In this document: positions 14,174 through 26,900 of the stretch, one piece after another
Layout of the letters: every line of letters starts with the position of its first letter
How positions within the stretch are numbered: the first letter of the stretch is position 1
Origin: Ancylobacter defluvii
GTDB taxonomy: Bacteria; Pseudomonadota; Alphaproteobacteria; Rhizobiales; Xanthobacteraceae
Direction: 5' to 3'
NCBI RefSeq assembly: GCF_018390605.1
Contig: NZ_JAHBGD010000021.1
Location: forward strand, 1 to 43,142
DNA length: 43,142 nucleotides
The notes under the pieces: generated by a model
Databases searched by the model: none
Told to the model about the DNA's origin: nothing
The model's input: only the letters and a program-made list of their open reading frames with translations
Translations under genes and position numbers: made by a program

Positions 14174-15258
14174 GGCGGGCGCTCCTCGCCCGCCTCGGGG
14201 CCAGCCTCATTGCCTTCGCCACCCTTCTCGCCCTCGGGGCCGGCGGCGCCACGCCGCTGAAGGCGCAGACCATGGCCAATACGGTGCCGATCGAGGCGTG
14301 GAACGCCTATATGCAACACTTCGTCGCCGAGAACGGGCGGGTGGTCGACACCGCCAATGGCGACATCAGCCACAGCGAGGGCCAGGGCTACGGCATGCTG
14401 CTGGCCTTCCTCGCCGGCGACCGCAGCAATTTCGAGCGCATCTGGAGCTTCACCCGCACCGAGCTGATGATCCGCGACGACGGGCTGGCGGCCTGGCGCT
14501 GGGACCCCAACGCCACCCCGCATGTCACCGACGTCAATGCCGCCAGCGACGGCGATATATTAATCGCCTACGCCCTCGCCCGCGCCGGCATCAGCTGGAG
14601 CAACCCGGCCTATACCGACGCCGCCCGCAAGATCGCCCGCGCGCTCGGCGCCAAGCTGGTGGTGAAGTCGGGCGACCGGCTGGTGCTGCTGCCGGGTGTC
14701 CAGGGCTTCTCGGTCGAGGACCGCAAGGACGGGCCGATCCTCAATCTATCCTATTGGATCTTTGAGGCTTTCCCTTTGTTCGTCCAGCTGGCGCCGGAAA
14801 CCGACTGGGCCAGGCTCGGTGTCAGCGGCCTCGAACTCCTCTCCATCGCCCGGCTCGGGCCGGCGCAGCTGCCGCCGGATTGGATCGCCGCCCCGGCGCG
14901 CGGGCCGGTAACCGTCGCCGATGGCTTCCCACCCGTGTTTGGTTACAATTCGTTAAGGATATTTCTTTACCTGTTGAGGGCAGGAATCGAGGATTCGCAG
15001 ATACTGGAGAGCTTCCGGCGCAGCTGGCTGGCCGAAAATGGCGGAGTTCCCGCCATCGTCGACATCCCTACCGGCCGGGTGGTGAACCAGTTGACCGAGC
15101 CGGGCTATCGCATGCTGGGCGCCCTGCTCGCCTGCGCACTGGACCGAACCGCGATTCCACAGGACCTTCGGCGGTTCGAGCCAACGCTCTACTACCCGTC
15201 GACCCTGTTTCTGCTGAGTTGGGCCGTGCTGGTGGAGAAATATCCGCGATGTCTCTGA
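14170..15258 (+). CDS. bcsZ: GH8 endoglucanase BcsZ, catalytic Asp replaced by Asn
   Basis: Periplasmic family 8 glycoside hydrolase of the cellulose operon, thought to trim or edit nascent glucan. Of 362 residues, the first 33 form a signal peptide (ending in LKAQ). The proton-donor Glu is present at position 70 (HSEGQGYGM), followed by DVNAASDGDILIAYAL. Where E. coli BcsZ, as I recall it, has SYDAIRV with the general-base Asp243, this protein has GYNSLRI with Asn260 (AAT at 14947). The DNA around it uses unusually AT-rich codons (TTA, AGG, ATA, TTT). The ATG overlaps the bcsB stop (ATGA). It may be inactive, weak, or use another base. Confidence 0.9.
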   Translation: MRRALLARLGASLIAFATLLALGAGGATPLKAQTMANTVPIEAWNAYMQHFVAENGRVVDTANGDISHSEGQGYGMLLAFLAGDRSNFERIWSFTRTELMIRDDGLAAWRWDPNATPHVTDVNAASDGDILIAYALARAGISWSNPAYTDAARKIARALGAKLVVKSGDRLVLLPGVQGFSVEDRKDGPILNLSYWIFEAFPLFVQLAPETDWARLGVSGLELLSIARLGPAQLPPDWIAAPARGPVTVADGFPPVFGYNSLRIFLYLLRAGIEDSQILESFRRSWLAENGGVPAIVDIPTGRVVNQLTEPGYRMLGALLACALDRTAIPQDLRRFEPTLYYPSTLFLLSWAVLVEKYPRCL

Positions 15259-17444
15259 AGCGAGCGGCTCTGCTGTTGCTCTTGGGGGGGGCCGTGATCC
15301 CCGCCATCGCCCAGCAGATCGAGCTCCCGGTCGGCAACGCCCCGGCCGCCGACAGGACGCCGCCGGCCGACGGCGCCGCTCGCCCCAGCATCGACGAGAG
15401 CGCACTGCGCTATTTCGCCTCCCAGGGCGACACCCGCCGCCTCGAAGCCGAGATCGCCCGCCTGCGCGCGCTTTATCCCGACTGGTCGCCGCCTGCCGAC
15501 CTGTTCGGTCCGCAGTCCGATCCCGATCTCGAGCGCATGTGGAAGCTCTATGCCGAGGGCAAGCTCTCCGACGTGCGCAGCGCCATCGCCGCCCGCCAGG
15601 CCAGCGATCCCTCCTGGCAGCCGCCGGCCGAGCTCCTCGCCCGCCTCGACGAGAGCGAGAACCGCCGCCGGCTGATCAACGCCTCCGACGCCCAGCAATG
15701 GAGCACGGTGCTGCGCATGGCGACGGAGACGCCGGGCCTGCTCACCTGCTCCAATGTCGACATTCTCTGGCGGGTCGGCGAGGCGTTCGCCAAGACCAAC
15801 CAGATGCAGCGGTCGCTCGACGCCTACACCTACCTGCTGACCAACTGCAACGACGCTGCCGAGCGCCTCGCCACCATCCAGAAGGCGCTGCCGCTGCTCG
15901 ACGACGAGCAGGTGAAGCAGCTGCTGGCGCTGGAACGCAAGGACGCCCAGGGCCAGCCGGAATTCACCTCGATCCGCGACGAGCTGATCCGCCGGCGCGT
16001 CGGACGCGCGGCGGAAAACCCGGAATTCGTCGCCTCCAGCGACGACATCGCCCGCCTGGAAACCCTCGCCCGCGCCGGCAATACGCCGGGCGACCCGCTG
16101 CTGCTCGGCTGGTACCTGTTCCGCCACGACGAAGCCTCGCGCGCGCTCGACTGGTTCAAGCTGGCGCTCGACCGCCAGGGCGGCGCCAAGGCGGCGGAGG
16201 GCTATGTGCTGGCGCTGAACTCGCTCGGACGGGCGCTGGAGGGCGAGCCGATCGCCTTCCAATGGCGCGACGCCGCGCCGGAGAACGGAAAGGCCTATCT
16301 CGACGTCGTCATCAGCCTGCTCACCGCCGCGCCGCCACCGGTGCTCTCCGAAACGGTGCTGACCCGCTTCAGCCCGGTGGTGATGCGCGACAAATACGTG
16401 CCCGGCGCGCAGGCGCTCGGCTGGTACGCCTACAATACCGGGCAGCTGGTGGTGGCGCAGGCCTGGTTCCAGACCGCGCTGTCCTGGGATCCCAATGACG
16501 AGCCCTCTTCCTACGGCCTCGCCCTCACCTATTGGCGGCTGAACGACGCCGCGCGGCTCAACGCGCTGGTGCAGAGCTGGCGCGGCCGCTCCGAGCGCAT
16601 CGTCGCGCTGGTCGATGCGAATCTCCGCGCCCAGCTCGAAGCCCGCAATCTGCAGGGCCAGATCAACCGCACCACCAATCCGCTGGTCGCTGCTGCGCTG
16701 CGCGTCACCCCGCCGCCGGCCAATGCCGGGGCGCCGGGCACCGGCCTCGCCTACACCGCCGGGCAGCCGCCGACCGGCTTCCAGCCGGTCCCGACGCAGC
16801 AATTCCAGCCGGTCCCGGCGCAGCTTGCCCCGGCGCAGACGGCGCAGGCCGCCCCTGTCCGGCGCGCCTATGCGCAACCGGCCACCTATCGGCAACCCGC
16901 CCCGGCCGCGGCGAACCGGCCCCGCTCCGCCTCCGGCGACACCGCCCGTGGCAGCGGCGGCGGTGCCGCCGCGCTCTCCCGCGGCTGGCGGCTGATGGAG
17001 CTCAACCGGCCGATCGAGGCGGTCACCGCCTTCGACGAGGCGATCCGCACCGGCAGCGGCCGGATCGCCGAAGAGGCCGCTTACGGCAAGTCGCTGGCCT
17101 ATATGCGCAAGGGCATGACCAACCAGGCGCAGGTGGCCGCCATCGAGGCGCCGCAGTCGCCGCGCCGCGCCATGCAGCTGACCGCCGACCTGCTCGCCCA
17201 GCGCGCTTACGAGTTCTACAAGGACCAGCGCTATGTCGAGGCGATCATTTCGCTCGACGAGCGCGCCCGCATCTCGCCGGAACAGCAGGACCTGATGATG
17301 ATGCGCGGCTGGAGCTACTTCAACATCCGCGACTACCAGTCCGCCGAGCGCATCTTCCGGGCGCTGGCGGCGCAGGGCAACACCGACGCCATGAACGGCG
17401 TCTCCGAAATCGAGTTCGCCCGCCGGCTGTACAAGCGGGAGTAG
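15249..17444 (+). CDS. TPR cellulose-operon protein (BcsC-like without barrel)
   Basis: A 731-residue exported protein with a signal peptide ending near PAIAQQ and tetratricopeptide-like helical repeats through most of residues 45-480. A Pro/Gln/Ala-rich linker at about 487-567 contains a tandem QFQPVP motif. A second TPR block (570-731) ends without any beta-barrel. It occupies the bcsC slot, but BcsC is usually over 1,100 residues with a C-terminal outer-membrane barrel. It probably corresponds to the BcsK-type periplasmic TPR protein described for alphaproteobacterial operons; that name is from memory, so I leave the symbol empty. The ATG at 15249 overlaps the bcsZ end by 10 nt. Confidence 0.85.
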   Translation: MSLKRAALLLLLGGAVIPAIAQQIELPVGNAPAADRTPPADGAARPSIDESALRYFASQGDTRRLEAEIARLRALYPDWSPPADLFGPQSDPDLERMWKLYAEGKLSDVRSAIAARQASDPSWQPPAELLARLDESENRRRLINASDAQQWSTVLRMATETPGLLTCSNVDILWRVGEAFAKTNQMQRSLDAYTYLLTNCNDAAERLATIQKALPLLDDEQVKQLLALERKDAQGQPEFTSIRDELIRRRVGRAAENPEFVASSDDIARLETLARAGNTPGDPLLLGWYLFRHDEASRALDWFKLALDRQGGAKAAEGYVLALNSLGRALEGEPIAFQWRDAAPENGKAYLDVVISLLTAAPPPVLSETVLTRFSPVVMRDKYVPGAQALGWYAYNTGQLVVAQAWFQTALSWDPNDEPSSYGLALTYWRLNDAARLNALVQSWRGRSERIVALVDANLRAQLEARNLQGQINRTTNPLVAAALRVTPPPANAGAPGTGLAYTAGQPPTGFQPVPTQQFQPVPAQLAPAQTAQAAPVRRAYAQPATYRQPAPAAANRPRSASGDTARGSGGGAAALSRGWRLMELNRPIEAVTAFDEAIRTGSGRIAEEAAYGKSLAYMRKGMTNQAQVAAIEAPQSPRRAMQLTADLLAQRAYEFYKDQRYVEAIISLDERARISPEQQDLMMMRGWSYFNIRDYQSAERIFRALAAQGNTDAMNGVSEIEFARRLYKRE

Positions 17445-17469
17445 CCGCTCCGGCACGGCCCGAAACCCG

Positions 17470-17507
17470 AAAGGCGTGCCTCCGGCAGGAGCGCGCCTTT
17501 TTCTTTT
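17470..17507 (+). terminator. Rho-independent terminator of the bcs operon
   Basis: Stem AAAGGCGTGC (17470-17479) pairs with GCGCGCCTTT (17491-17500), with one T-G wobble and an 11-nt loop, followed by TTCTTTT. It lies 25 nt after the TPR gene and between it and the convergent tRNA-Sec gene. Confidence 0.85.
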
Positions 17508-17526
17508 GCAAACACGGAGCGAGGAA

Positions 17527-17622
17527 TGGCGGAAGAGAGTGGGAGTCGAACCCACCAAGGACCGGCGAGCGGCCCCTTCTGGTTTTGAAGACCAGCTACC
17601 TCACCGGAGATAACTCTCTTCC
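17527..17622 (-). tRNA. selC: tRNA-Sec (anticodon UCA)
   Basis: Selenocysteine tRNA, charged with Ser by SerRS and converted by SelA. Read on the minus strand it folds as the long bacterial type: 8-bp acceptor stem (GGAAGAGA with TCTCTTCC), 6-bp D stem, anticodon arm CTGGT-CTTCAAA-ACCAG with UCA at 17588-17586, a long variable arm, T arm GTGGG-TTCGACT-CCCAC, discriminator G and an encoded CCA. The D arm and variable arm are nearly those of E. coli selC. The first 22 nt overlap the 3' end of selB, whose UGA stop lies within the D-arm sequence. Length is 96 nt with CCA. Confidence 0.97.
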
Positions 17623-19643
17623 CCATTGGCCTCCCGGGCGGAGGCCGAAACATCTGCCCCGCCGCCACCCTGGACGGCAAGAAGCGCGGCGGGCGGCTCG
17701 TCGACGGCACCGAACAGATCGAGCCGGTGCCGGTTGATCCGGCGCAGATCGCCGCGCCGGAGCGTCACCCCGTGGCGGTCGAAGAACTCCAGGATCTGGA
17801 TCGCCACCTTGCGGCCGACCGCATGCTCGCCATGCTCGATGCGGTCGCGAAAGGCGGCGGCGCTGAACTCCCCGTCCGAGGCCAAGGTTCTGGCATGGCC
17901 GACCATAACCGATACCACCGGGCGGAGGAAGAAGTGGTCATGCGCCACCTCGTCGACTTTCCCCAGCCGCGACAGCAGCTTGAACAGCCGGCGGATATCG
18001 GCCTCCGGCTCGCCGAGCCGGCCGGCAATGTCGCGCACCCGCGGCGGCCGGAAGCGCTCGGGACCGGCGAGCATCGGCGCGATCGCCTCCCACAACAGTT
18101 CGTCGCCACGGGTGAGCCGCACCTCATGGCCGGCGAGCCGGGCCCAGCCGCCCTCGACCGCCAGCATGCCCTCCGCCGCGAGACGGGCGAGCGCGACCAG
18201 AAAGGCCGGCTTGGGCAGCCGTACGCCGAGCTCCATACGCAGCTTCTCGACGCCGATGCCGGCAAGGTCGGGATTGGCGGCGTGGTAGGCGGCGAGCGCT
18301 GTCCCGATCTCTTCGCCCAGCGCCGTCCAGCGCGCGGCGGAGAGGGCGAGCGTCGTGCCCCCGACGGCGAGCGTCGCCAGCTTCAGCTCGGCCGCCAGCG
18401 CCGCCGGGGCATCGGCGGCGAGCGCGCGGTCGCGGGCGAAGGCATCGAGATCGAGATAATAAGGCGGCAACTCGACGAGACGAGCGAGCGCGGTGGCGGG
18501 ATCGGCCACGCCACCGGCCGCGAGCAGGGCGAGCCGTTCCGGCGTGCGCCGCTTGCGGGCGGGCGCGCGCAGATCGATGAAGCGGCCGCCGCCGATGGTG
18601 CGCTGGGCCGAGGTGTCGCGCAGCACAAAGCGGTCGCGCACCGCCGCCGCAATGGGGCGCTCCAGCACCAGTTGCACCAGCCCATACGAGCCCGGTGCCA
18701 GCGCCTCGGTCTCGAGCGGCACCACGCGGGCGCCGACCTCCACCGCGCCGTGATGCAGCCGCGCCGGAAACCAGGTGCCGAGCGGCTTCGGCTCCGAGCC
18801 GAGGACGCGGAGCGAGGCATCCATGCGGTCGGTCGGCGAGAGCAGCGAGGGATCAAGCACCACGTCGCCGCGCGCAATTGCCTGTGCGGTGATGCTGTCA
18901 CCAGCGAGGTTGAGCGCGCAGCGGTCGCCGGTGACGCCGCGCGCGGCCGGGCGGTTCTGCGCATGGATGGAGCGCACCCGTGCCGGCAGGCCGGTGGGAC
19001 TTACCGTGACCCGATCCCCCACCGCTACCACGCCGGACACCACGGTACCCGTCACCACGGTGCCGGCGCCGGACAGCGCGAAGGAGCGATCGACCGACAG
19101 GCGGAAGCGCGCGCCAAAGTCCGCGTGCTGTCTCTCCGCCGAAAAGCTCGCCGCCGCCGCGACGAGGGCGGCGCGCAGTTCGGCGATGCCCTCGCCGGTC
19201 TGGGCCGAGACCGCCAGCACCGGCGCGCCATCGAGCGCAGTGCCCTTGAGCACCTCGGCGATCTCGACCGACACCGCCGCGCGGCGGGCATCGTCGGCGA
19301 GGTCGGCCTTGGTCAGCGCCACCAGCCCGCGGGAGACGCCGAGCAGATCGAGGATGGCGAGATGCTCGCGGGTCTGCAGCATCACCCCGTCATCGGCGGC
19401 AACCACCAGCAGCGCGAAATCGATGCCGCTGGCCCCGGCCAGCATGGTGTGGATGAAGCGCTCATGGCCGGGCACGTCGATGAAGCCGAGAATGCCGGCC
19501 TCGCTCGGCAGATAGGCGAAGCCGAGATCGATGGAGATGCCGCGCGCCTTCTCCTCCTTCAGCCGGTCGGTATCGACGCCGGTGAGCGCGCCGATCAGCG
19601 CGGTCTTGCCATGGTCGATATGGCCGGCGGTGCCGATGATCAT
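17601..19643 (-). CDS. selB: Selenocysteine-specific elongation factor SelB
   Basis: GTPase that delivers Sec-tRNA to UGA codons followed by a SECIS hairpin. The 680-residue protein starts with an EF-Tu-like G domain (GHIDHGKT at 7-14, DVPGH at 56-60, TKAD at 111-114), then beta-barrel domains, then the C-terminal winged-helix repeats that hold the SECIS RNA. It is somewhat longer than E. coli SelB (614). The ATG overlaps the selA stop (ATGA). Its last codons (after ANG: EESYLR and UGA stop) are read from the first 22 nt of the tRNA-Sec gene, so the two genes physically share sequence. Confidence 0.96.
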
Positions 19644-21058
19644 GCCGGCAACGGGGCGAGCGGCAGCCCGGCGAGGCTGTCGAGCAGGCCGCGGGGGTCT
19701 TCAAGGCAGCGCAGGTCGAGCAGCAGCGCGCCCTCGGCAATGCGGCCGACCACCGGCCGCTCCAGCCGGCGCAGCGCGCTCGCCAGCGCCGCCAGCGCCC
19801 GGCCGGAACCGTCGACGGGGCGCAGGGCGAGGCCGGCGCTCGGCAATGTCTCCTGCGGCAGCGCGCCGGAGCCGATCTGGCTGGCGCAGTCCACCACCGC
19901 CACGGCATAGCCGTCCCCCAGCAGGGCGGCGACCGGCATGGCCAGCGCCTCGGCCAGCGTGCGGATCTCCTCCATCGGGCGCGCCAGCAGGCGCAGCGTC
20001 GGCAGGCGGTCCTTCAGCGTGTCGGGATCGCGGTAGAGCTTGAGCGTCGCTTCCAGCGCCGCGAGGCGGATCTTGTCGACCCGCAGCGCCCGCTTCATCG
20101 GGTTGCGGTTGAGCGCGGCGATCAGATCGGCACGGCCGACGATGAAGCCGGTCTGCGGCCCGCCGAGCAGCTTGTCGCCGGAGAAGGTGACGATGTCGGC
20201 GCCTTCCGCCACGCAGTCGCGCACCGTGGGCTCGCGGCCGATGCCGAGGCGGGCGAGATCGGCCAGGGTGCCGGAGCCGAGATCGTTCACCAGCGGCACG
20301 CCATGGGCGCGGGCGATGGCGGACAGCTCGCGCGCGCCGACTTCCTTGGTGAAGCCCTCGATGCGGTAATTCGAGGTGTGCACCTTGAGGATCAGCCCGG
20401 TATCGGCGTCGAGGGCACCGAGATAGTCTTTGGCATGGGTGCGGTTGGTGGTGCCGACCTCGACGAGGCGGACGCCGGCGCGGGCCATGATGTCCGGCAT
20501 GCGGAAGGCGCCGCCGATCTCGATCAGTTCGCCGCGCGATACGATGGCGCCCTTGCCCGCCCCGAGCGTGTTCAGCACCAGCAGCACCGCGGCGGCGTTG
20601 TTGTTGACGACGGTGGCGTCCTCCGCGCCGGTCAGCTCGATGAGCATGTCGCGGACATGGTCGTCGCGCTCGCCGCGCGTGCCGGTGCCGAGATCGTATT
20701 CGAGCGCCACTGCCGAGCGCATGGCGGCGCTCGCCGCCTCCACCGCCGCCTCCGCCAGCACGGCGCGGCCGAGATTGGTGTGCAGCACCGTGCCGGTGAG
20801 ATTGAACACCGGGCGCAGCGAGGCGCGGGAGCCGAGCTCCAGCTGCTCGGCCGCCGCCAGCGCCACATGGTCGGGTGTGGGCATCGCGGCGAGCTGGCCG
20901 GCGAGCACGCAGGCACGCACCTCCTCGATCGCGGCGCGGATCGCGACAGTGAGCGGGGCGCGGCCGAAGCGCTCGGCGGCTTCGAGCGCGGCCTCTGATT
21001 TCAGCACCTGGTCGACCGAGGGCAGATCGCGCAGGGACGGGCGGGCTTCCGCATCCAT
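19640..21058 (-). CDS. selA: L-seryl-tRNA(Sec) selenium transferase SelA
   Basis: PLP enzyme that converts Ser-tRNA-Sec to Sec-tRNA-Sec using selenophosphate from SelD. It has 472 residues (E. coli 463). The family core is clear: [49 protein letters not shown], and the PLP lysine in [13 protein letters not shown] at Lys296, next to E. coli Lys295. The ATG at 21058 has GGAGG 9 nt upstream; the frame continues open into the antisense of fdhE, which I reject. It lies 11 nt after fdhE and overlaps selB, so the three are probably one transcript. Confidence 0.97.
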
Positions 21059-21069
21059 GAGGGCCTCCG

Positions 21070-21984
21070 TCAGTAGCCGATCAGGAACGGGTTGTAGGCG
21101 GCGCGGCGATAGGGCCCCTCGCGCATCATCATGTCGAGCGGCAGCGAGCCGATATCGTCGGCCAGCGCCTCCATCGACGGGTCCTTGTGCTGGTGCAGCA
21201 CCTTCACATAGGTGCGGCACTCGTCGCAGGTCTCGGCCTTCACCGTGCCGGGACCGCCCTCGACCTCCTGATAGCCGATGCCCTTGGTGGAGCCGCAGGA
21301 CACGCATTTGATGCGCACATAGTTCCACAGCGTGCCGCACAGCTCGCAGGCGCAGAAGCGGTTGCCATGGGCGGTCGGCCATTCGACGACCAGCGAAGCG
21401 ACCGGCGGGCCGCCGCAGGCCGGGCATATCGCGGTCTCGCCGACCGGCTTCAGCGCCTTGGCATCGAGGGTGGCGGCGAGCCGGGCCGCGAGCACCTCCA
21501 GCCCGGCGGCGAGAAAGGCGTGCTCGGCAAGCGCCTCCATGGGAATGGCATGGGCGAGCACATTGCCGGCGATCTCGGCGCGCGCGCCGGCATCGGCCTG
21601 CCGCAGACGGGACAGCGCCGCGGCGGCCGGCTCCGGCATCGGCCGCCTGGCCACCGCGTCGAACAGCGCGTCAAGTGTCGGCATGAAGGCGGGATCGTCG
21701 GCCAGCGTCGAACGGTCGAGCGGCGGCATGCCGAACTCGCTCGCCCGCGCCACCTGCTCGGCCGGGATCGGCGCCGGTGCCGGCGCCAGCGCCACCGTCT
21801 CGGCCTGGGCATCGACGATGCCGGCGACGAAATCGAGATAGGGCCTGGCCGGGCTCACCGCCGCATAGGCCCGCAGCCGCCGGGCGCGAACGGGAAACAG
21901 AGAGGACGGATCGGGAACCACCGCGAAGGGCGGCGTCGAGACGGCGCCGATGACGGTGGGATCGGGCTGGATATCGGTGGACAT
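21070..21984 (-). CDS. fdhE: Formate dehydrogenase accessory protein FdhE
   Basis: Cytosolic maturation factor needed for active respiratory formate dehydrogenase. The 304 residues compare with 309 in E. coli. The C-terminal half carries the zinc-ribbon/rubredoxin-like Cys pairs typical of FdhE: CPACGG near 190, FCACELCG, IKCVSCG, and AETCDECRTYVK. The N-terminal 70 residues contain the RARRLRAYAAVSPARPYLDFVA block. The start at 21984 has GAGGAG 4 nt upstream (further start codons upstream lack one). It is separated from fdnI by 238 nt that hold a terminator-like hairpin, and leads directly into selA. Confidence 0.94.
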   Translation of the reverse strand: MSTDIQPDPTVIGAVSTPPFAVVPDPSSLFPVRARRLRAYAAVSPARPYLDFVAGIVDAQAETVALAPAPAPIPAEQVARASEFGMPPLDRSTLADDPAFMPTLDALFDAVARRPMPEPAAAALSRLRQADAGARAEIAGNVLAHAIPMEALAEHAFLAAGLEVLAARLAATLDAKALKPVGETAICPACGGPPVASLVVEWPTAHGNRFCACELCGTLWNYVRIKCVSCGSTKGIGYQEVEGGPGTVKAETCDECRTYVKVLHQHKDPSMEALADDIGSLPLDMMMREGPYRRAAYNPFLIGY

Positions 21985-22133
21985 ATTGCTCCTCACGAAC
22001 CGCACGGGCCACGTGGACAGGCTGGACCCGGACCAGGACCGGGCGACGCAAACCGGACGCATCGATCACACTGCGTGGAACACGCACATATAACGCATGC
22101 ACCCGCGAAACAGCTTCACGGGGTTTCCAAAAC

Positions 22134-22222: not shown

Positions 22223-22951
22223 TCACTCCGCCGGCGTGCCGGTACCGCTTTTGGCCGGCTTGTGGACCAGCTCGCGCAGCCATTTGCGGTGATGCCGCCA
22301 CGCCCAGCCGCCGGTGACGTTGCCGCGCGTCATGGCGCTGAAGGTGCCCTTCACCCAGATCGCCGCATAGACATGGACGATCCACACGCAGATGGCGAAG
22401 ATCGCCGTCGCCGAATGCACGAGGATGGCGATGCGCTTCTGCTCGATAGTGGTGAAGGGGTAGAAATACTGGTCCCACATCACGATGCCGGAGGTGATCA
22501 GCACCAGGATGAGGGCCGACATCGACCAGAACACGAATTTCTGGCCGGCATTGTACTTGCCGACTTCCGGCATCTTCTCTTCGCGCCCGGCCAGCAGGTC
22601 GCTCGAATGCGCCAGCCATTCCGCATCGACACGCTTCGGCAGGTTGGCGCGCCAGAACCGCACGAACAAGAGGGCGAAGGAGCAGAACAGCACCACGCCG
22701 ATCCAGGGATGCAGGATGCGCGTCATCTGGCCGCCGCCGAACAGGCCGGTCAGGAAGAACAGTTTCGGCGTGAACAAGGCGAGACCGGACAGCGCCAACA
22801 GCACCAGGCTTACGGCGGTGATCCAGTGATTGATGCGCGCACCGACGGTGTAGCGGTCGACCGTCACCGGGTGACCGGGATGCACCGCATCGCCCGACTG
22901 GACGTCGTCGGCAGGCTCCGGAACCGGAGCCTTCGGGTCGTGAACCGTCAT
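22223..22951 (-). CDS. fdnI: Formate dehydrogenase gamma subunit (cytochrome b556)
   Basis: Inner-membrane di-heme cytochrome b that passes electrons from the beta subunit to quinone. Of 242 residues, four membrane segments are visible: [18 protein letters not shown] near 45, the stretch following [10 protein letters not shown] near 82, [19 protein letters not shown] near 140, and [18 protein letters not shown] near 188. Candidate heme histidines lie in these helices (RINHW, HPW, LVHSA, VHVY). The C-terminus ([16 protein letters not shown]) matches FdnI/FdoI. Its N-terminus is about 30 residues longer than in E. coli. It overlaps fdnH by 4 nt. It could equally be named fdoI. Confidence 0.94.
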
Positions 22952-23937
22952 GACCGCCTCCCCTCCAGCGGCGCCGGGCCAGCCGGTGGCGGAACAGTGG
23001 CACCGCCGGCAAGCCTCTCGGCGTTCTCCTCATCTTCCTCGGTCACCTTGTTGGGGCCGGCGACGAGGTAATGAAGTACGCCGGCCGCCGCCGCGACACC
23101 CATCAGGGCCATGCCCATATATTTGGTGATGCCCTTCCAGGTTTCCACGATCGGCGAGATGCGCGGATTGTCCGGCAGGCCGGCATAGATCGACGGCTGG
23201 TCGGCGTGGTGCAGCACATACATCACATGGGTGCCGCCCACGCCCTGCGGGTCGTAGAGCCCGGCATTCTCGAAGCCGCGGGACTTCAGGTCCTTGATGC
23301 GGAAATCTGCCCAGCCCTTCATCTCCTCCTTGGTGCCGAAGACGATGGCCTGGGTCGGGCACGCCTTCTGGCAGGCCGGGCCCTGGCCGACCGCGACGCG
23401 ATCCGAGCACAGCGTGCACTTATAGGCGGTGTGGTCGACCTTGGAGATGCGCGGGATGTTGAACGGGCACCCCTTGATGCAGTAGCCGCAGCCGATGCAG
23501 TTCTCGTGCTGGAAATCGACGATGCCGTTCGAATACTGCACGATGGCGCCGGGCGACGGGCAGGCCTTGAGGCAGCCCGGATCCTCGCAATGCATGCAGC
23601 CATCCTTGCGGATGAGCCATTCGAGATTCTCGGTCTCGGGGTTCACCCACTCGGTGAAGCGCATCAGCGTGAAGGTGTTCTCGGTCAGGTCCATGGGGTT
23701 GTCGTAGACCCCGTGGTTGATGCCGATCTCCTCGGTCAGATGGTTCCACTCGAGGCACGCGGCCTGGCAGGCCTTGCAGCCGATGCACTTGGTCACGTCG
23801 ATCAGCTTGGCGACCTCGGTGAGCCGCGTCGCCGGCGGCTCGATGGTGGAGGCCGAACGCCGGATCAGGTCCTTCTCGCCGAAGCGCGGCGCGGCCGCGG
23901 CCGGGTCGACGGACGGGTTGGGAATTGGTGGGAACAT
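22948..23937 (-). CDS. fdnH: Formate dehydrogenase iron-sulfur beta subunit
   Basis: Periplasmic-facing electron-transfer subunit with four [4Fe-4S] clusters. The Cys clusters are intact: [55 protein letters not shown], and [28 protein letters not shown] single C-terminal membrane anchor follows ([20 protein letters not shown], about 275-295). The 329 residues compare with 294-300 in E. coli FdnH/FdoH; the extra length is mostly in the N-terminal 35 residues and the tail. It starts 12 nt after fdnG and overlaps fdnI. Also called fdxH or fdoH. Confidence 0.95.
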
Positions 23938-23949
23938 CGCGCCGCCTCC

Positions 23950-26900
23950 CTACGCCACCGGCCCGGTCGAGGGCTCGATGTTGACCATGAACGCCTTGAA
24001 TTCCGGCGTCTCGATATTGGCGTCACCGACGAACGGGGTGAGCACATTCGCCGGGAAGCCCTTACGGGCGGCGCCGACGAAGCCCCAGTGGATAGGCACG
24101 CCGACCACATGCACCGTCTTGCCGTCGATGGTCATCGGCTTGATGCGCTTGGTGACCACCGCGATGGCGAGAAGCTCGCCGCGCTTCGACCACACCCGCA
24201 CCCAGCCGCCCTTGACGATGCCCTTCTCCTTGGCGAGTTCCTCCGAGATCTCCACGAACTGCTGCGGTTGCAGCACCGAGTTCACATGGTTGTTCTTGGT
24301 CCAGTAGTGGAAATGCTCGGTGAGGCGGTAGGTGGTGCCGGCATAGGGGAAGTTGGGATCGCCGATATCGGCGAACTGCTTCCAGTCGTCGGCGAAGACG
24401 CGCGCCACCGGATTGCCGCGCACCTTGGGCGCGATCACGTTGGCGACCGGGCTCTCGAACGGCTCGTAATGCACCGGGAACGGCCCATCGCGCATCATCT
24501 TGCGCACGAACAGGCGCGATGACCCCTCCGGATTCATGATGAACGGGCCGACTTCACGCGGCTTGGCGGTGGGCGCGATGTCCGGCACGTCGTAGCCGGT
24601 CCATTTCGCACCGTCCCACTCGATCAGCTTGCGCGAAGGATCCCATGGCTTGCCGTCGAGGTCGCAGGAGGCGCGGTTGTAGAGGATGCGCCGGTTAGCC
24701 GGCCAGGCGAACGACCATTTCAGATAGGCTCCGGTCTCGTCCGGGTCGGAATTGTCGCGGCGCGCCATCATGTTGCCCACCTCGGTCCAGCAGCCGGAAT
24801 AGATCCAGCAGCCGCCGGCGGTGGTGCCGTCGTCGCGATAGAGGCCGAAGCCGGAAAGCTGCTTGCCGGCCTCGAGGATCTTCTTGCTCGGATCATTGGG
24901 ATCGAACACGTCGACCAACGCCGAACCGTTCATCTCCCTGGCGAGTTCCTCCGGCGACGGCTCGCCCGGATCCTTGTAGGCCCAGTTCAGGTTGAGGATC
25001 GGATCGGGAAAGGCGCCGCCCTCCTTGCGGTACAGCTCCTTCAGCCGCAGATGGATCTGCGCCATGATCCAGGTGTCGTGCTTGGCCTCGCCGGGAGGCG
25101 AGCCGCCCGGCCAGTGCCATTGCAGCCAGCGACCTGAATTCACCAGCGATCCCTCATCCTCCGCGAAGCAGGTCGACGGCAACTGGATCACCTCGGTCTT
25201 GATCGAGGCGGGATCCGCCTTGTTGTAGATGCCATGGTCTTCCCAGAAGCGCGCCGTCTCGGTCTGGAGCGGGTCCATGACGACCAGCAGCTTGAGCTTG
25301 GCGAGCGCCTCGGCGAGCTTTGCCTTGTTGGGGAAGGCCTGCAGCGGGTTGAACCCCTGGCAGAAATAGACGTTCATCTTGCCCTGCTTCATCAGCTCGA
25401 AGGCACGCAGAACGTCGTATCCCGATACGTCGAGCTTCGGCAGGTAGTCATAGGCCCAGTCATTCTGCGCCGTAGCAGCGTCGCCCCACATGGACTTCAT
25501 GAAGCTGACGAAGAACTTCTTGTAGTTCTGCCAATAGCTCATCTGGTTCGGCCGCAGCGGCTTGAAGCCGCGGGTCGACATATAGGTGGCGAAATCCACT
25601 TCCTTGTCGGCGGGGATGTTGAGATAGCCGGGGATGAGGTTACTCATCAGCCCGATATCGGTCAGTCCCTGGATGTTGGAGTGGCCGCGCAACGCATTCA
25701 TGCCGCCGCCGCGCACCCCGATATTGCCGAGGATGAGCTGCAGCATCGCCATGCCGCGGATGTTCTGCGACCCCTTGGAATGCTGGGTCCAGCCGAGCGC
25801 ATACATCGACGTCATGGTCTTGGTCGGCGAGGAGCACTCGCCGATCATCTGCGCGATGTGCAGGAACTTGTCCTTCGGGGTGCCGCAGATGCGCTCGACC
25901 ATCTCCGGCGTGTAAATGGCGACGTGCTGCTTCAGCAGGTTCCACACGCAGCGCGGATGCTGCAGCGTGTCGTCCACCAGCGCATAGCCGTCCGGGCCGA
26001 TCTCGTATTCCCAGCTATCGCGGTTGTAATCGCGCTTTTCCTCGTCATAGCCGGTAAATAGGCCGTCCTGATAGGCGAAGCCTTCCTTCACGATGAAGGC
26101 GGCATTGGTGAATGCCTTGGTATAGGCCCACTGCACCTTGTCGTTGCTGATGCACCAGTTGATCAGGCCCATCAGAAAGGCGATATCCGAACCCTGACGG
26201 ATCGGCGCGTAAAAATCCGCCACCGAAGCCGAGCGGTTGTAGCGCGGGTCGATCACGATCAATTTGGCGCCACGGTTGGCTTTCGCCTCAGTGACCCATT
26301 TGAAGCCGCACGGATGGGCCTCGGCAGCATTGCCGCCCATGATGACGACAAGATCGGTATTCCGGATGTCGGTCCAGGAATTCGTCATAGCGCCACGGCC
26401 AAATGTTGGGGCGAGACTCGCCACCGTCGGGCCGTGTCAGACGCGTGCCTGGTTGTCGAATGCCAGCATCCCGGTCGAGCGCACCACCTTGTAGGTGGCG
26501 AACGCAGTTTCGTTGGTCGTCGCCGACGCCGCCAGGAAGCCGGTGGTCAGCCACCGGTTGACGGTAACGCCGTCCTTGTTCTTGGCGATGAAGTTGGCGT
26601 CGCGATCGTCCTTCATGGCGCGGGCGATCTTGTCGAGCGCCACGTCCCAGGAAATCGGCTCGAACGTGTCCGAGCCGGGCTTCCTCACCATCGGCTGGGT
26701 GAGGCGCGTCTCGGACTTCACGATGTTCAGCAGCGCGGCGCCCTTCGGACACAGCGTGCCGCGATTGGTCGGGTGGTCGGCGTCGCCCTCGATATGGACG
26801 ATGTCGGCCTTCTCGCCCTTCCGAAGGTCGCCCTTCGCAAAGATGATGATGCCGCAGGCGACCGAGCAATAGGTACAGGTATTGCGGGCCTCGACCGTGT

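Follow-up and report, generated by a model that had tools for sequence, protein, structure and literature searches.

In Ancylobacter defluvii, the 3'-terminal 22 nt of selB double as the first 22 nt of selC, the gene for tRNA-Sec, on the same strand. The window analysed was a 43,142-nt stretch of contig NZ_JAHBGD010000021.1 (assembly GCF_018390605.1), and the overlap that a first-pass annotation had reported there was confirmed by the open reading frame, ARAGORN, TIGR00475 and RF01852. The locus is probably a frameshifted relic of an arrangement in which selC lay nested within selB, with a shared RNA that would be translated first and from which the tRNA would be cut afterwards. Comparison with related loci suggests that the 22-nt form is a reduced version of a once longer overlap and not a switch built for the purpose. 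The locus adds a case to a kind of gene overlap that is already in the literature. Mukai 2021 (PMC8124441) reported that tRNA-Sec genes of Alphaproteobacteria can lie wholly within selB or share part of it, and the A. defluvii pair, which shares bases on one strand, is a selB–selC overlap in the broad sense of that paper. The form with the selB stop at tRNA nt 20–22 was absent from the descriptions found in literature searches, and Ancylobacter is absent from the text of Mukai 2021.

The features of the locus are listed in Table 1. The product of selB was identified as SelB by TIGR00475 (388.5 bits against a cut-off of 242.25). The tRNA scored 77.3 bits against RF01852 (cut-off 47) and has the UCA anticodon, 8-bp acceptor stem, long variable arm and G73 of a bacterial tRNA-Sec. 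It was the one tRNA-Sec gene found when RF01852 was run on the whole genome: among 13 matches, of which the best four were identified, the next three (50.4, 48.5 and 45.6 bits) were tRNA-Ser, tRNA-Ser and tRNA-Trp, and the nine weaker matches all fell below the family cut-off. The 3' end of selB reads ...GGG GAA GAG AGT TAT CTC CGG TGA, giving a protein that ends in EESYLR. The first nucleotide of the tRNA (17622) is the third base of the GGG codon, and the last selB codons form the 5' strand of the acceptor stem and part of the D arm.

Table 1. Coordinates of the features of the selA–selB–selC locus and of the neighbouring formate dehydrogenase genes.
Feature	Position	Strand	Remarks
selC, tRNA-Sec (UCA)	17527..17622	minus	96 nt with encoded CCA; ARAGORN
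selB	17601..19643	minus	ORF of 680 aa; ATG at 19643; UGA stop 17601-17603; Pfam SelB domains
selB/selC overlap	17601..17622	minus, same strand	22 nt, tRNA nt 1-22
selB UGA stop, tRNA-Sec nt 20-22	17601..17603	minus	
RNase P cut	between 17623 (-1) and 17622 (nt 1)	minus	predicted, inside the GGG codon
Leader AAUGG (-5 to -1)	17623..17627	minus	predicted pairing with CCAUU at the tRNA 3' end, G73 bulged
selA	19640..21058	minus	TIGR00474, 575.8 bits; start codon estimated
fdhE	21070..22062	minus	TIGR01562, 309.8 bits
Formate dehydrogenase beta subunit	22948..23937	minus	TIGR01582, 471 bits
SECIS_3 of the formate dehydrogenase alpha gene	26384..26442	minus	RF01989, 86.4 bits

The order on the minus strand is selA, selB, selC, and the selA stop codon overlaps the selB ATG by 4 nt (ATGA, 19643–19640). 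Upstream of selA the operon extends through fdhE and formate dehydrogenase genes. The formate dehydrogenase alpha gene carries an in-frame UGA at 26439–26437, and the part that follows it matched TIGR01553 (1164.6 bits); its product is predicted to be a selenoprotein served by selABC. Beyond selC, a GC-rich inverted repeat (17468–17509) with a T run on its plus side lies between selC and a convergent plus-strand gene. In Rfam it gave only a sub-threshold match to RF00489 (29 against 50 bits); it is probably a terminator. A 788-aa open frame (15192–17558), antisense to the plus-strand gene at 14880–17444, continues the selB frame past its UGA and is by its looks a by-product of GC-rich DNA.

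For the survey of relatives, 391 genomes of the family were searched and 110 SelB loci were examined; second SelB-like copies, contig-end pieces and EF-Tu-like matches were set aside. selC was nested in selB in 93 of these loci, overlapped it partly in nine, stood separate in six and was out of reach in two. Wherever it enters the counts, L038, which runs off its contig with no selB stop seen, is classed as nested. The 30 loci of the same genus comprised 18 nested, six partial and six separate cases, and the other 80 family loci 75 nested, three partial and no separate cases, with two lacking a tRNA in reach. A second set of 80 named loci (56 nested, 16 separate, three partial and five with no tRNA in reach) represents partly the same species, and its counts are not additive to those of the 110 loci.

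The overlap, the frame and the UGA at nt 20–22 seen in A. defluvii recur in L010 (SelB identical to that of Ancylobacter sp. Lp-2, L117) and in L011 (SelB identical to that of A. sonchi, L039), and the form was present in 3/110 of the family loci examined. The junction comparison proposed by the first-pass annotation thus finds the overlap kept in two relatives. The closest relative with another form is L012 (A. oerskovii, L062), in which selB stops 120 nt before the tRNA.

A quick tree was calculated from 157 unique SelB cores (122 nested, 18 separate, ten partial and seven with no tRNA in reach). A. defluvii, L010 and L011 grouped together at SH-aLRT 92 (below 95), and L012 joined them at SH-aLRT 100, amid nested lineages. 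At least 14 changes between the nested and other states were counted on this tree, five of them within the 30 same-genus rows. The partial overlaps of L024, L025 and L027 (selB stop at tRNA nt 45–47, frame 2) and those of L178, L193, L197 and L046 (stop at nt 46–48, frame 1) look like separate losses of nesting. The simplest reading is that nesting came first and was lost several times later; this direction is our inference, as the change counts themselves give none.

Remnants of the nested arrangement have been described in Sinorhizobium (PMC8124441). In L016 the selB ORF still covers half of a nested tRNA-Sec, the first, before it breaks off, and a complete selC follows 962 nt further downstream, which resembles the pSymA case of Sinorhizobium in the same paper (PMC8124441). 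Another remnant is L108, with a nested-type selB tail cut short (GGEASPVGRPDFKSGWGREPVLARKIHGG...) and no tRNA-Sec in reach. L072, from a record titled Mycobacterium sp. KBS0706, is an alphaproteobacterial nested selB–selC that grouped with Inquilinus limosus (L085) with a support of 100; the organism label is probably wrong.

In the nested type, the tRNA starts at a codon boundary, with GGA (Gly) as its first codon (PMC8124441). The distance from a conserved SelB anchor motif to tRNA nt 1 was used to follow this frame. In 115 of 116 nested loci this distance was divisible by three, counted with L036, L122, L132 and L148 (anchor motif absent) excluded and with L070 and L150 (by eye both in frame 1) left out. 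The exception, L185, is alone in having a selB that reads through tRNA-Sec in frame 3, perhaps because of a recent frameshift or an assembly slip. The nested distances took 31 distinct values and varied over 57 parsimony length changes on the SelB tree (counted without L185), while those of the separate loci split 4/6/8 over the three residues modulo 3. Being divisible by three despite so many values, the nested distances make the frame through tRNA-Sec look selected in these relatives, as far as sequence comparison can tell. Stops were also absent from the other two tRNA frames in 72 and 66, respectively, of the 76 unique nested tRNAs (L061, L070, L091, L095 and L150, with ends of unexpected form, left out), so stop codons do not force the choice of frame. 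Since the frame is kept and the choice is not forced by stops, translation through the tRNA appears to matter in the nested relatives. Openness of frame 1 was rejected as a proof of selection: column-shuffled tRNAs were open in 89–93% of draws, frame 1 was also open in 8/12 separate tRNAs, and nested tRNAs are open by the definition of their class. The test of divisibility by three was used in its place.

A likely reason for this frame is a coupled gene downstream. In many nested cases, but not in all, the start of the following ORF coincides in part with the selB stop (PMC8124441), and 67 of our nested loci have an ATGA-type overlap between the selB stop and the start of such an ORF. A profile of this ORF (about 150 aa), built from nested loci alone and therefore one that a different downstream gene would escape, was matched in 75/122 nested and 0/28 non-nested loci. 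The profile gave no match above cut-off in Pfam; we assume that the ORF is one of the ORF1/ORF2 overlaps of Mukai 2021 (PMC8124441). The Fisher value for its association with nesting was 3e-10, but the loci are kin, and among seven phylogenetically independent pairs about 2.5 agreed and none opposed, which is not significant. With a looser test, any ORF of at least 90 aa near the selB stop, the counts were 83/121 nested and 11/28 other loci. Within the genus, where the nested frame was lost repeatedly, the profiled ORF was found in L037 only. In A. defluvii the profile found no coupled ORF between 200 nt ahead of the selB stop and 1800 nt past it, or the end of the locus.

As the profiled ORF follows many nested loci and none of the others, the A. 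defluvii locus looks like a frameshifted relic that remained when this partner was lost. A small gene that lies downstream in many nested relatives, its ATG overlapping the end of selB, would have disappeared from the Ancylobacter lineage. The reading of the tRNA would then no longer have been held in frame, and the clade with the 22-nt overlap would have shifted to the frame in which UGA is reached at tRNA nt 20–22. The A. defluvii tRNA has GGUGA in its D arm, which gives a stop at nt 20–22 when nt 1 is a third codon base; in the ancestral (nested) frame it has UAG at nt 25–27. Seven of the 76 unique nested tRNAs have the same first stop in the frame concerned, unused by their selB. The selB UGA needs no special design, as one frameshift in a free-running tail is enough. 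The first-pass annotation had remarked on a SelB UGA stop inside the gene of the UGA-decoding tRNA; the stop is there, but it simply follows from the D-arm GGUGA.

For the expression of the relic we propose the following course. selC would be transcribed as the tail of a selA–selB–selC RNA. Ribosomes on their way to the UGA would prevent the 5' half of the tRNA from folding and so exclude RNase P; as they become fewer, the tRNA would fold and RNase P would cut at nt 1. The cut RNA would then be spent as a selB message and would yield tRNA-Sec, and a late ribosome would need rescue by tmRNA, for which an alpha-type gene is present in the genome (293 bits). Protein would thus come first and tRNA after, as a competition on each RNA rather than as a strict switch. 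If this reading is true, SelB and the tRNA that it carries would be made in a set order from a single RNA, with RNase P determining the proportion of the two.

The bases flanking the predicted cut bear on this course. According to two studies, U(-1) and A(-2) favour cleavage by E. coli RNase P (PMC9433436, PMC10731613), and the rate data of the first make G(-2)G(-1) a slow context. U was found at -1 in 70/119 nested leaders, against about 10–18% at the four third codon positions from -16 to -7, and G at -2 in only 10/119 (leader counts without L185). By analogy with the context that the E. coli enzyme favours, this supports an action of RNase P on the selB-borne leaders of nested relatives. 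The nested leaders are U-rich on selB codons, with U at 39, 35, 15 and 59% from -4 to -1. The A. defluvii leader carries G(-2)G(-1), which, with the predicted pairing of AAUGG and CCAUU, suggests that it may be cut slowly by RNase P; this is a lead only, as GG also occurs in 10/119 nested leaders. G at -2 is shared by L009, L010, L011 and L012. A slow leader was not established as a trait of the clade, given the nested GG count and the kinship of L009–L012. A leader hairpin before the tRNA (GGCCTCC...GGAGGCC in A. defluvii) was also dismissed as a special feature, with z-scores of -0.8, 0.9 and -1.1 in the three species with the 22-nt form and a mean of -0.67 in 120 nested leaders.

In a more elaborate version, which we consider improbable, selection across the group would maintain the frame through tRNA-Sec so that selB ribosomes cross the tRNA on their way to the coupled gene, and translation itself would gate the maturation of the tRNA. 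In the clade with the 22-nt overlap, after the loss of the partner, this gate would have turned into a kinetic timer. If it were true, the pairing of the leader with the CCA end of the tRNA would slow RNase P until SelB was made.

It is comparably unlikely that a promoter of its own inside selB gives selC most of its tRNA-Sec and leaves the overlap with little effect on SelB. No sigma-70-like promoter was found in 17430–18000 by a consensus scan for which shuffling also predicted none; the scan covered the sigma-70 consensus only, with low power in GC-rich DNA and poor coverage of alphaproteobacterial promoters, which leaves room for such a site. selC also lies apart from selB in 18/157 unique loci, where it presumably works. 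However, selA, selB and selC are packed head to tail, with the selA/selB overlap noted above, and in nested relatives the RNase-P-like leader signature sits on selB codons.

Somewhat less probable still is a strict one-or-other switch, in which each selB–selC RNA gives either SelB or tRNA-Sec and so sets their ratio. In outline this is the proposal of Mukai 2021 (PMC8124441), in which tRNA processing leaves a non-stop selB mRNA and SelB and tRNA-Sec are alternatives; the mechanism of the first-pass annotation is close to it. A 2026 review restates the model in one sentence (PMC13188914), and no bench test of it was found in literature searches. The geometry of the overlap suits a switch, and overlap of some kind is present in 102/110 family loci. 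On any shared selB–selC transcript, to judge from the anatomy of the locus, the conflict with RNase P would remain. The claim that a joint transcript yields a selB message or a tRNA but not both holds for one molecule at one moment, and a cut at 17623/17622 would indeed remove the selB stop. As a strict either/or it is too strong, because one RNA could be translated, even many times, before it is cut, and the two outcomes would be ordered in time rather than exclusive. Moreover, 12/30 same-genus loci are not nested and six of these have no overlap. Several lineages of the genus have thus dropped the overlap, so a working system can do without it.

An artefact of chance or assembly, with the true selB stop upstream of the tRNA, has very little probability. 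SelB tails are unconserved and variable, as such an account would allow, but the overlap and its frame recur in two independently sequenced relatives, L010 and L011, whose tails differ from that of A. defluvii and are 18 nt shorter (83 against 101 nt from LDLFG to tRNA nt 1, all 2 modulo 3). The same stop in two relatives with differing tails makes a sequencing error that moves the selB stop, named beforehand as a ground for refutation, very unlikely. Between L010 and L011, ten of 27 tail codons differ by an amino-acid-changing and one by a silent substitution, which, at the level of codon comparison, shows a SelB tail seemingly without protein constraint. That the selB UGA is recoded as selenocysteine, letting SelB sense the supply of Sec-tRNA at its own stop, is barely credible: the frame is open past the UGA through the tRNA, but no SECIS family match was found at this UGA with permissive filters (among the ten matches listed at E values up to 5), and in relatives the selB stop lies elsewhere and is UAG, UAA or UGA.

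Two observations on the nested loci go beyond the text of Mukai 2021 (PMC8124441): the frame through the tRNA has persisted over at least 57 changes in length, and the selB codons before the tRNA show an RNase P leader context. Members of the genus form a natural series, from fully nested through stops at nt 47, at nt 22 and 4 nt before the tRNA to genes far apart, that is suited to checking the 2021 model in harmless bacteria.

The A. defluvii locus shares with the nested type (PMC8124441) its two genes, their common strand, the bacterial class and the predicted consequence of processing. It differs in that selB stops at tRNA nt 20–22 rather than past the whole tRNA, in that nt 1 is the third rather than the first base of a codon, and in having no coupled downstream ORF. 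In Dyella and Luteibacter the overlap is partial and the selB stop also lies inside the tRNA-Sec gene, but at nt 46–48 (PMC8124441); that of A. defluvii, at nt 20–22, is in another frame. The two groups of partial overlaps in our survey (L024/L025/L027 and L178/L193/L197/L046) likewise have selB ending within selC, with a different frame and stop site. In E. coli, selA and selB form an operon and selC lies elsewhere in the genome, free of overlap, whereas in A. defluvii genes of the same functions overlap.
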